DNA of 39,285 nt from Deltaproteobacteria bacterium (GTDB lineage: Bacteria; Myxococcota_A; Polyangia; JAAYKL01): contig JAUXHN010000015.1 of NCBI GenBank assembly GCA_030621515.1, forward strand, positions 1-39,285, read 5' to 3'. Each line of letters begins with the position of its first letter. Position 1 is the first letter of the stretch. Below, piece after piece: positions 20,314 through 22,835 of the stretch. Below the pieces are notes generated by a model. That model was not told the origin of the DNA, made no database searches, and saw only the letters and a program-made list of their open reading frames with translations. The translations under genes and the position numbers were made by a program.

Positions 20314-20598
20314 TCAGGCCTCACGGGCACGTTCGATGGCTACGCGGATGGCGGGGGGGAGGTAGATTTCGGAGAGATCGAGCGCGGCCAGGGCACCGGC
20401 GAGGACGTCGCAACGATCTTCGGGCCCGAGCTGATCGTGAATGATGATGATCTTGAGGTCGTGAACACGGCACAGGCCTCCTCTGGAAGAACCGATGTCG
20501 TCCCTGGAGATCAGGTCTTCGTAGCGCACTTCGATGCCCAGCTTCGCGGCCGTTCCCTCCAGCAACGACAGGAGGTTTTGCGGATCGTGGTTTTTCAC
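20314..20598 (-). CDS. 94-residue protein translationally coupled to ThyX
   Basis: The frame is open far upstream inside thyX, but a GTG at 20598 overlaps the thyX stop as GTGA, the classic coupling arrangement, and only the part after it has protein-like composition. It starts with an amphipathic helix and a GIEVRYEDL strand. The centre holds SSRGGLCR, then the hydrophobic strand LKIIIIHDQL, a helix (DRCDVLAGALAAL) and SEIYLPPAIRVAI. I recognise the pattern as a conserved small protein but cannot name its function. The order strand-helix faintly recalls ImmA/IrrE proteins with the HExxH helix lost; this is speculation. Its tight link to thyX suggests a role in nucleotide metabolism or stabilisation of ThyX. 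Confidence 0.78.
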   Translation of the reverse strand: MKNHDPQNLLSLLEGTAAKLGIEVRYEDLISRDDIGSSRGGLCRVHDLKIIIIHDQLGPEDRCDVLAGALAALDLSEIYLPPAIRVAIERAREA

Positions 20599-22088
20599 GG
20601 ATCGAGATCTGAAGGGTCCACTCGCGGTTTGCGCCCGAAAACTTTTTCGAAGCGCTCGACGAAGCGATCCTTTCCGCACAGGAGAAGCGCCCCGAGGGGC
20701 ATGACCCTGGCGACCTCCCGCCCGATACTGGTGGCGAGATCCCTGATGTCCCACTGGGCATGCGAGTCTTCCCGCAGTCTTGCAAAGTGATACAGATCCC
20801 GCAGGTTGGTGGTAAAAAGGACGCGTCGGCGATGGGAGTTCGTCAGCACGTACGGCGCAGCTTCTGGATTCATTGTGGAGAGATCGTGAAATACCACTTC
20901 GACTCTGTCCGCGAATTTTCGCAGATCGTCCTCGAAGCCGCATTCGGCAATGGAGGGCGGCACGGTGAGTCCGAGATCCGGATCGTAGGCGCATACCGAT
21001 TGGGATGTCATGCGATGGCGCTTGAGCTGGGCAAAGCAAGCGGCGCAGACCGTGAGCTCGAACGTGAGGCTCACGTGTTCGAATTCCCGTCCGGGGTTGT
21101 CGAAGAACTCCATCCGGCGCATGGCCGCCTCGAAAAGGCCTGCGAGCTTTTCCCTGTTCAGGTTGGAGGCGGCGGTCCGGCAGGCTTCGAACGAATGCCC
21201 TGACGCTCTGGCCAGCATTGCCGCCGCGACAATATCGTCGGGGTTATTTGGGCTTTCCACCAGGCGTACGGGATCTTCTTCGCCCGTGGCGCCCCTTTCC
21301 TCACCGAGGATTTGCTTCGCCAGGTCTTTCAGCTCCGCTGCCGTTTCCAGATCGAACGAAGAGGCCTTTGTGAAGAGTAACACCGAGGGAGCGATGGCGG
21401 CGGCTCGTTCATGGAGAAGCTCTCCGAGTTCACGCAGTTCGGCCAGTGGGGACGCGGCCATCCTCCTGACAATGAGTTCCAGGTTACGGGCGTTGGCGGT
21501 GAAGCCGAGCTGGCCGTTGGTCGCGAGGATCGTTACGTACCTCGCGTCTTCTTTTGCCCATCCGCTCAGGAGTCTGCGACCGGATTTCTTTGTTGTGAGC
21601 TCCGGATGGTGTTTCTCGAGGCGCTCGAGGAGAGTGTGGTTGAACTTCTTGTAGAGTTCGGATTGGTCCGCCACGATCTCGCACAATTTGGCTTCGAACG
21701 GAGTGTCCCGGATCTCGTCCGGTATCACGAAATCGTGATCCAGCGTGATGTACCGCTGGCTCTTTTCGGTGAACGAGCAGAGACGAAAGTGTTCGAGTTC
21801 TTCGATCGCCAGCCTGGATATTCCGAGTAGATCGAAGTTGAAGACCGCATGCTCCGCCACCGAGTGGTGGCCCATCCCGAAGATGATGCTACGGTTGGAT
21901 TTTCTTGCTTTCTCAACCTGTTCGAGGGCCTCGCGCCGAAGCTCGCCCACGGGTCTGGGATCGCGGCTGATCCGTGCGTAGGCGGCACAGAGCACCTCCG
22001 GGGTCAGTCGATCGGGGGAGATGCCCGCTTTCCGCGCCTCCTCGAGCACATTCGAGTCAATGTTGTATCCGGCAAGAACGACTCTCAT
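20595..22088 (-). CDS. thyX: Double-length FAD-dependent thymidylate synthase (ThyX-like tandem)
   Basis: Likely makes dTMP from dUMP with FAD, NADPH and methylene-tetrahydrofolate. At 497 residues it is about twice a normal ThyX (220-250) and has two ThyX-like halves. The N-half has GHHSVAEH (73-80), ISRLAIEELEH and the tail of the signature, S-x-T-E-x-S-x-R-Y (105-113), but HFR in place of RHR. The C-half has EHVSLTFELTV and an intact RHR (357-359) with MTSQ, but loses the SxRY end. Active sites may form between halves, as in the dimer interfaces of the normal tetramer. I recall such long versions in other deltaproteobacteria. The start has AAGGAGG 10-12 nt upstream. The next gene is coupled by a 4-bp overlap. 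Confidence 0.85.
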   Translation of the reverse strand: MRVVLAGYNIDSNVLEEARKAGISPDRLTPEVLCAAYARISRDPRPVGELRREALEQVEKARKSNRSIIFGMGHHSVAEHAVFNFDLLGISRLAIEELEHFRLCSFTEKSQRYITLDHDFVIPDEIRDTPFEAKLCEIVADQSELYKKFNHTLLERLEKHHPELTTKKSGRRLLSGWAKEDARYVTILATNGQLGFTANARNLELIVRRMAASPLAELRELGELLHERAAAIAPSVLLFTKASSFDLETAAELKDLAKQILGEERGATGEEDPVRLVESPNNPDDIVAAAMLARASGHSFEACRTAASNLNREKLAGLFEAAMRRMEFFDNPGREFEHVSLTFELTVCAACFAQLKRHRMTSQSVCAYDPDLGLTVPPSIAECGFEDDLRKFADRVEVVFHDLSTMNPEAAPYVLTNSHRRRVLFTTNLRDLYHFARLREDSHAQWDIRDLATSIGREVARVMPLGALLLCGKDRFVERFEKVFGRKPRVDPSDLDP

Positions 22089-22124
22089 GTCAGCTGTGCC
22101 TCCTTCAAGAATAGATCCTGGGAA

Positions 22125-22153
22125 ACTCTAGCCAACCTGACGGTTCACCGCAA
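22125..22153 (-). promoter_or_regulatory. Possible thyX promoter
   Basis: On the minus strand TTGCGG (22148-22153) and TAGAGT (22125-22130) with a 17-nt spacer. Each hexamer matches consensus at four of six positions. The start site would give a leader of about 30 nt containing the AAGGAGG ribosome site. Confidence 0.4.
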
Positions 22154-22175
22154 CAGCGCGATTCACGCGACAGAA

Positions 22176-22181
22176 TATAAT
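22176..22181 (+). promoter_or_regulatory. -10 box of the Sua5-like gene
   Basis: A perfect TATAAT lies 36 bp upstream of the Sua5-like start in the thyX divergent gap. The expected -35 region (near 22153-22158, ACAGCG) is poor and touches the thyX -35, so the two divergent promoters may interfere or need an activator. Confidence 0.4.
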
Positions 22182-22217
22182 CAATGTGTTAAGGGCTCTT
22201 TTTTTCGGAGGAATGGA

Positions 22218-22835
22218 ATGTTGCTGCCGATAAATCCTGTGCACCCGGAGCCGCGCAAGATACGCATGGCGGTGGATACCCTCATGCGCGGCGGGGTAAT
22301 CGCGTATCCAACCGGAACCGTCTTCGGCTTCGGCGCCGATCTGCTCAACAAGAAAGCGGTGGAGAAGGTTTACCGGATCAAGGGCGCCAGGAAAGACAAA
22401 CCGTTCTCGTTTCTCTGCGCGGATCTGTCGCAGATAGCCCGATACGCTAGCGTCTCCGACGGTGCATACCGCATCATGCGTCGGCTGGTTCCCGGCCCGT
22501 ACACCTTTGTGCTCGAGGCCACCAGGGAAGTACCTCGGCTCTGCATGAGCAAGCGCAAGACCGTGGGAATAAGGGTCCCAGATCACCCCGTCGCCCTGGC
22601 AATCCTCACGGAGTTCGGGCGTCCGATCATCTCCACTTCGGCCAGGCGCGATGACGACGACGACGACTGGATACCGAACGACCCCGAGGAGATCAGCCTC
22701 AAGTTCAAGCAGCTCGACATGGTGATCGACGCGGGAATGGGCGGCCTCAACCCGTCCACAGTACTCTCGTTCAACGACCAGGGTGGGATCGAAGTGCTCA
22801 GAGAAGGCGCCGGTTCGGTTGACGGGATTTTGTAG
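22218..22835 (+). CDS. Sua5/YciO/YrdC-family protein (threonylcarbamoyl-AMP synthase-like)
   Basis: A 205-residue YrdC-fold protein. Members make threonylcarbamoyl-AMP from threonine, bicarbonate and ATP for the t6A modification of ANN-decoding tRNAs; this copy is closest in look to the YciO branch, whose exact role is less certain. Visible blocks: GGVIAYPTGTVFGFGAD, the KVYRIKGARKDKPFSFL nucleotide/threonine-site segment, TVGIRVPDHP, IISTSA and the PSTVLSF strand. An unusual run of seven Asp (with one Trp after) sits in the loop after the STSA block. ATG 22218 is chosen with GGAGGA 5 nt upstream, although the frame is open further upstream through the thyX region. Confidence 0.88.
   Translation: MLLPINPVHPEPRKIRMAVDTLMRGGVIAYPTGTVFGFGADLLNKKAVEKVYRIKGARKDKPFSFLCADLSQIARYASVSDGAYRIMRRLVPGPYTFVLEATREVPRLCMSKRKTVGIRVPDHPVALAILTEFGRPIISTSARRDDDDDDWIPNDPEEISLKFKQLDMVIDAGMGGLNPSTVLSFNDQGGIEVLREGAGSVDGIL

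Follow-up and report, generated by a model that had tools for sequence, protein, structure and literature searches.

The locus studied here raises the question of how a thymidylate synthase of the ThyX family could work when its signature motif is divided between two halves of one chain. The gene lies in a window of 39,285 nucleotides, the whole stretch of DNA that was analysed (contig JAUXHN010000015.1 of a Deltaproteobacteria bacterium), and occupies positions 20595..22088 of the minus strand, from an ATG start and with the stop included, encoding 497 amino acids. The Pfam profile PF02511 (Thy1) matches the open reading frame twice against a cut-off of 24.8 bits, at 21384-22004 in the N-half (108.1 bits) and at 20697-21266 in the C-half (100.9 bits), with 209.9 bits for the whole protein. 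The tandem protein also scores 151.5 bits against TIGR02170, the profile of FAD-dependent thymidylate synthase (cut-off 87.9). On the same minus strand as all parts described below, the N-half corresponds to residues 1-247 (21348..22088) and the C-half to residues 268-497 (20598..21287). They are joined by a link of residues 248-267 (21288..21347), whose boundaries, taken from the Thy1 matches and fold alignment, are approximate.

Both halves are under purifying selection, with dN/dS values of 0.08 for the N-half and 0.18 for the faster-evolving C-half in comparison with the relative L005. A pseudogene is ruled out by the open frame and by dN/dS values of 0.05 to 0.18. The neighbouring genes encode a Sua5/YrdC protein, a TPR protein and a kinase, and this gene context provides no functional clue. 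The gene of the Sua5/YciO/YrdC family (22116-22835, plus strand) adjoins the tandem gene and is divergently oriented.

Folds and active-site residues of the two halves

A structure prediction for the monomer had been proposed in an earlier note on this DNA, which would have counted the lack of a ThyX fold in either half against its interpretation. The AlphaFold2 model of the tandem chain, built from 40 aligned tandem proteins, has a mean pLDDT of 88.8 and a pTM of 0.87, and both halves are predicted to be ThyX-like, with Z values of about 16 each. The N-half (model residues 1-244) aligns to the ThyX structure 3ge9 with a Z-score of 16.6 and 3.3 Å over 199 residues; the C-half (model residues 270-478) aligns to Thermotoga maritima ThyX (5chp) with a Z-score of 16.5 and 2.5 Å over 192 residues. 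ThyX chains occupy the top ranks returned by Foldseek. By its title, 3ge9 is the Corynebacterium glutamicum ThyX, not required for thymidylate synthesis, and the N-half Z values for active ThyX enzymes tie with it. PolB, by title a UMP/dUMP methylase, is also among the fold matches. No solved chain that matches by sequence in the PDB sequence set is longer than 270 amino acids.

The earlier note had described an N-half that carries SxTExSxRY with HFR in the place of RHR, and a C-half that carries RHR and lacks SxRY. This description holds residue for residue, and its numbering of R357/H358 and R112/Y113 is exact. In the N-half, the segment HFRLCSFTEKSQRY (residues 100-113; 21750..21791) has H100-F101-R102 where RHR is expected, followed by S105, T107-E108, S110, R112 and Y113, so that SxRY is retained and RHR is lost. 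The same half retains a GHxS motif (GHHS, residues 73-76; 21861..21872) and EDAR (residues 180-183; 21540..21551). The C-half retains QxxRHR (QLKRHR, residues 354-359; 21012..21029), including R357-H358-R359, and a distal NxR...R motif within NLRDLYHFARLREDSHAQW (residues 428-446; 20751..20807), and has A367, D369 and P370 in place of the S, R and Y of SxRY. The whole signature, RHRxxSxNExSxRY, is absent from either single half.

Residue equivalences to Mycobacterium tuberculosis ThyX were counted along the rows of phmmer alignments. In the N-half, S71 corresponds to S76, R87 to R92, R95/H96/R97 to H100/F101/R102, S105 to S110, R107 to R112 and Y108 to Y113; in the C-half, R172 corresponds to P412, R190 to R430 and R199 to R439. 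The N-half equivalent of R172 is R183, and Q354 of the C-half occupies the Q75-like position. Alignment of one half with the other pairs H100 with R357, R102 with R359, S110 with A367, R112 with D369, Y113 with P370 and R183 with P412. It also pairs S76 with D330, in place of which R334 was used for the counts below; neither is a serine or threonine in the window protein. Further aligned ThyX positions carry the labels H53, E58, E144, R147, N163 and H178, which we take to follow T. maritima numbering.

According to the site description in PMC6514825, one ThyX active site is built from residues of three subunits. Subunit A gives RHR, which contacts FAD and dUMP, and R199, which contacts dUMP; subunit B gives the FAD contacts S71 and R190; and subunit C gives R87, S105 and R107 for dUMP together with the lid residue Y108 (PMC6514825). 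For PBCV-1 ThyX, the account in PMC3498832 assigns Q75 and R182 to monomer A and S88 and Q89 to monomer B, and in the T. maritima enzyme S88, Y91 and R174 are described as acting in the chemistry (PMC8316439). When the FAD and dUMP contacts are mapped onto the two halves by alignment, as had been suggested, the full set is present and divided between them: the equivalents of S71, R87, R95, H96, R97, S105, R107, Y108, R190 and R199 can each be found in one or both halves of the window protein.

Conservation of the division and its history

The division is conserved among 149 distinct tandem proteins. RHR is found in the C-half of all 149 and in the N-half of 4, and SxRY in the N-half of 148 and in no C-half. 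The R199 equivalent follows RHR (C-half 149/149, N-half 0/149), as does that of Q75 (138 C-halves, 1 N-half). The S71 equivalent, counted as S or T, is present in every N-half and absent from every C-half; the R87 equivalent occurs in 141 N-halves and no C-half, and that of R172 in 149 N-halves and one C-half. The R190 equivalent is kept at similar rates in the two halves (128/149 and 119/149 for N and C, respectively), and is lost from both in the 21 proteins of clade III. Many of the 149 proteins were found with N-half peptide patterns, which biases the counts towards N-half motifs; for the 58 tandems found by Pfam or with the full-length protein, the corresponding figures are RHR in 58 C-halves and 4 N-halves, SxRY in 57 N-halves and no C-half, R199 in 58 C-halves and no N-half, and R172 in 58 N-halves and no C-half.

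The counted set includes 35 of 40 regions from the phylum, four having been missed by the phmmer step (L063, L075, L093 and L094) and a fifth (L096) dropped as apparently intein-split. From viral contigs, 21 loci were matched and 17 were taken as tandems, leaving out L198-L200 and L202; the 149 are what remained once seven repeats had been taken out. In L096 (genome G123), an intein seems to split the signature of a single ThyX, with an intein-like end abutting SVNEYSGRY, and L075 (G150), from the same genus, is perhaps another intein-interrupted single ThyX.

Every half-specific loss follows the subunit roles of the solved ThyX enzymes, with the residues of role A kept in the C-half and those of role C plus S71 in the N-half. 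Because S71 is kept in N-halves only, the N-halves would take on role B in addition to role C; as R190 occurs at similar rates in both halves, it is S71 that points to them for role B. The division of labour between halves that had been suggested in the earlier note is strongly supported. The split is not complete everywhere, since the N-halves of four class-mates (L021-L024, families f8 and f19) still carry the full RHR and the whole signature; these N-halves are without the R199 equivalent. Their RHR is possibly a relic of the route to the split, or else a reversal.

These patterns bear on the possibility of a pseudoenzyme pair, in which catalysis would be left to one half and the other would survive as a structural or regulatory remnant. 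Each half alone does lack part of the signature, and the C-half evolves faster, as such a remnant might; against this, each half keeps residues that serve only the site, nearly without exception in the 149 proteins. What the C-half retains (RHR and R199) and what the N-half retains (the equivalents of S105, R107 and R172) form an exact complement, which would be unexpected for a remnant, and we regard this explanation as improbable.

A full-length tandem is present in 12 of the 13 genomes searched within the genus or family, the one miss being in a genome that is 71% complete (G011). Near relatives among named genomes come from Deltaproteobacteria or Myxococcota MAGs. The best 80 of at least 562 relatives in named genomes all match across both halves, and include members of Myxococcota, Omnitrophota, Aminicenantes, Latescibacterota, Elusimicrobia and Fibrobacterota, as well as Auribacterota, Margulisiibacteriota, WOR-3, Syntrophales and Bacillota. 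With the same full-length tandem in 12 of 13 close genomes and in named assemblies, an assembly artefact is ruled out. More broadly, the idea that two ordinary thyX genes have been joined by assembly error or chance read-through has to contend with a stop-free single frame in independent genomes and in named assemblies of many phyla, and with the fact that neither half of the window protein bears the whole signature, as an ordinary ThyX would; nothing was found in its favour, and it deserves almost no weight.

Mobile elements carry related proteins. Full-length clade I tandems with 44-45% identity are encoded on three viral contigs of 340-470 kb (L182, L183 and L184), which may be either huge phages or misfiled genome pieces. 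Phage records returned partial matches only, covering 26-32% of the query. Plasmid records gave 24 matches, 10 of them covering at least 80% of the query, the latter from Bacillus, Paenibacillus, Euzebya, Miltoncostaea and Parabacteroides. In four plasmid proteins (L203-L206) the C-half carries RHR, with an extra residue (RHN-R) in two of the four, and the N-half carries SxRY. RHN-R is seen in the C-half motif of L203 and L204, on plasmid records of 205-229 kb from Paenibacillus and Bacillus.

Three clades of tandem proteins are separable by motif. In a tree of 86 halves and single ThyX sequences, the N-halves are separated from the C-halves, with support values of 62 and 89. A constraint holding the N- and C-halves of clade III together gave a tree 3.9 log units higher (p-AU 0.62), and the same constraint on clades I and II gave one 7.0 log units higher (p-AU 0.72); with the motif columns removed, the N-halves need two changes on the tree. 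From these comparisons, clades I and II look like the outcome of one duplication. A more tentative proposal, to which we give somewhat less than even odds, is that the fusion arose at least twice, once in clades I and II and once in clade III, and that every fusion ended with the dUMP side in the first domain and RHR and R199 in the second.

Thymidylate synthesis in carrier genomes

The earlier note had taken a second ThyA or ThyX in the same genome to speak against its interpretation, and such a gene was looked for in the source genome (4.64 Mb, 96% complete). No ThyA match and no Thy1 outside the tandem gene was found there, nor any match to DHFR (PF00186) or thymidine kinase (PF00265). Since the genome is 96% complete, a second synthase gene lying in its unseen part is conceivable.

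Across 282 genomes of the phylum, Thy1 is found in 140 and a ThyA match in 115. Full ThyA is present in 2 of 78 tandem carriers, in 1 of 62 genomes with single ThyX and in 108 of 142 genomes without Thy1. The 78 carriers are the genomes with at least two Thy1 matches minus four (two with pairs of separate genes and two taken for intein-split), and part of them were read individually. Four further carriers (G063, G130, G314 and G319) have a weak ThyA-like match (30 to 48 bits), which was not counted as full ThyA. The two carriers with full ThyA, G061 and G292, belong to one genus, and each of their tandems has lost one near-invariant N-half residue, by a change of Y108 to P in L085 and of R172 to Q in L207; the latter protein, without the R172 equivalent, stands outside the 149 counted. 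Loss of an N-half residue beside ThyA would fit relaxed constraint, on the thin evidence of two genomes from one genus.

In other phyla, 50 carriers were assessed through named contigs, and full ThyA was found in 2, weak matches (25 to 39 bits) in 6 and a Thy1 beyond the tandem in 2 (G329 and G364). In 145 genomes of Omnitrophota, the phylum of G339, 15 tandem carriers are among the matches listed, of which 2 have full ThyA and 2 have a separate single ThyX (G390 and G463). Many Omnitrophota genomes without full ThyA, G504 and G396 among them, show a weak ThyA-like match of 33-52 bits, which perhaps represents a distant type of thymidylate synthase.

The tandem could instead have another job, in making a modified pyrimidine or as a sensor, with dTMP coming from an enzyme that was not recognised. 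There are precedents among relatives of ThyX that are, by title, not the thymidylate synthase of the cell (PolB and the C. glutamicum protein), and the named-contig carriers with full ThyA or an extra Thy1, 2 of 50 in each case, agree with it. It is an unlikely explanation nonetheless, given that the tandem is the sole thymidylate synthase found in the source genome and that tandem and ThyA are near-exclusive in the phylum (2/78), as is the case for single ThyX (1/62). The evidence for the role of the tandem in thymidylate synthesis is this absence of other thymidylate synthases, in the source genome and in the phylum. The tandem is a real, conserved and widespread ThyX variant with a divided active site, and very likely serves as the thymidylate synthase of its cell.

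Proposed assembly and relation to known enzymes

The reading we favour, with a probability of about 0.86, is that the tandem would act as the thymidylate synthase of the cell, as an active ThyX of pseudo-heterotetrameric build in which each pair of chains forms two composite sites. The C-half would bind FAD and polarise dUMP through Q354, the RHR residues 357-359 and R439. The N-half would supply the residues that solved enzymes take from neighbouring subunits: S76 and R201 for FAD; R92, S110 and R112 for dUMP; Y113 as the lid; and R183. As the sites of solved ThyX use three subunits, a complete site probably comprises one C-half and two N-halves, and hence two chains. Two chains would be expected to pair as a pseudo-222 tetramer containing four ThyX domains, in which two of the four sites are complete. 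The remaining two places should be dead, because one side is without RHR and R199 and the other without SxRY. In the earlier note, one composite site had been proposed for each pseudo-dimer; the count agrees with two sites per chain pair, but a lone chain is probably insufficient to form one.

The tandem resembles the homotetrameric ThyX (FDTS) enzymes of T. maritima, M. tuberculosis, Helicobacter pylori and PBCV-1 in its predicted fold, in having every contact residue for FAD and dUMP, and in its genomic role as the thymidylate synthase of genomes without ThyA. They differ in having one domain per chain, whereas the tandem has two, with the contacts divided between them, and in forming four sites per four domains where two are predicted here. 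A domain-duplicated ThyX was described in 2009 as present in most sequenced Chloroflexi and a few other species, and as uncharacterised at that time (PMC3224940). Like the tandem, it has two ThyX domains and is the only thymidylate synthase where it occurs; unlike the split shown here, the remark on it in PMC3224940 has no word on motifs or sites. Compared by description only, it is very likely this form or a sister of it. The existence of long ThyX versions, mentioned in the earlier note, has thus been in print since 2009 as a duplication; the open-licence papers searched yielded that remark alone, and no description of the motif split.

The ThyX of Chlamydia trachomatis, which we take to be a long form of about 530 amino acids, was reportedly the subject of a 2005 study of catalytic mechanism. 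In a thyA complementation it is described as the positive control. If this protein is a tandem of the present kind, activity of the kind would already have been shown.

Either half of the tandem would be judged defective in a search with the standard signature. ThyX attracts study as a target for antibacterials. In the tandem, the sharing of sites between subunits is fixed in the sequence, so that each site role could be mutated alone in one gene, with no mixing of subunits. If the fusion did arise more than once with the same outcome, the part of the site left to each copy would be set by the geometry of the linked pair, and a symmetric tetramer with four sites would repeatedly have evolved into an asymmetric one with two. 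The tandem ThyX raises the question of whether four sites are ever needed.
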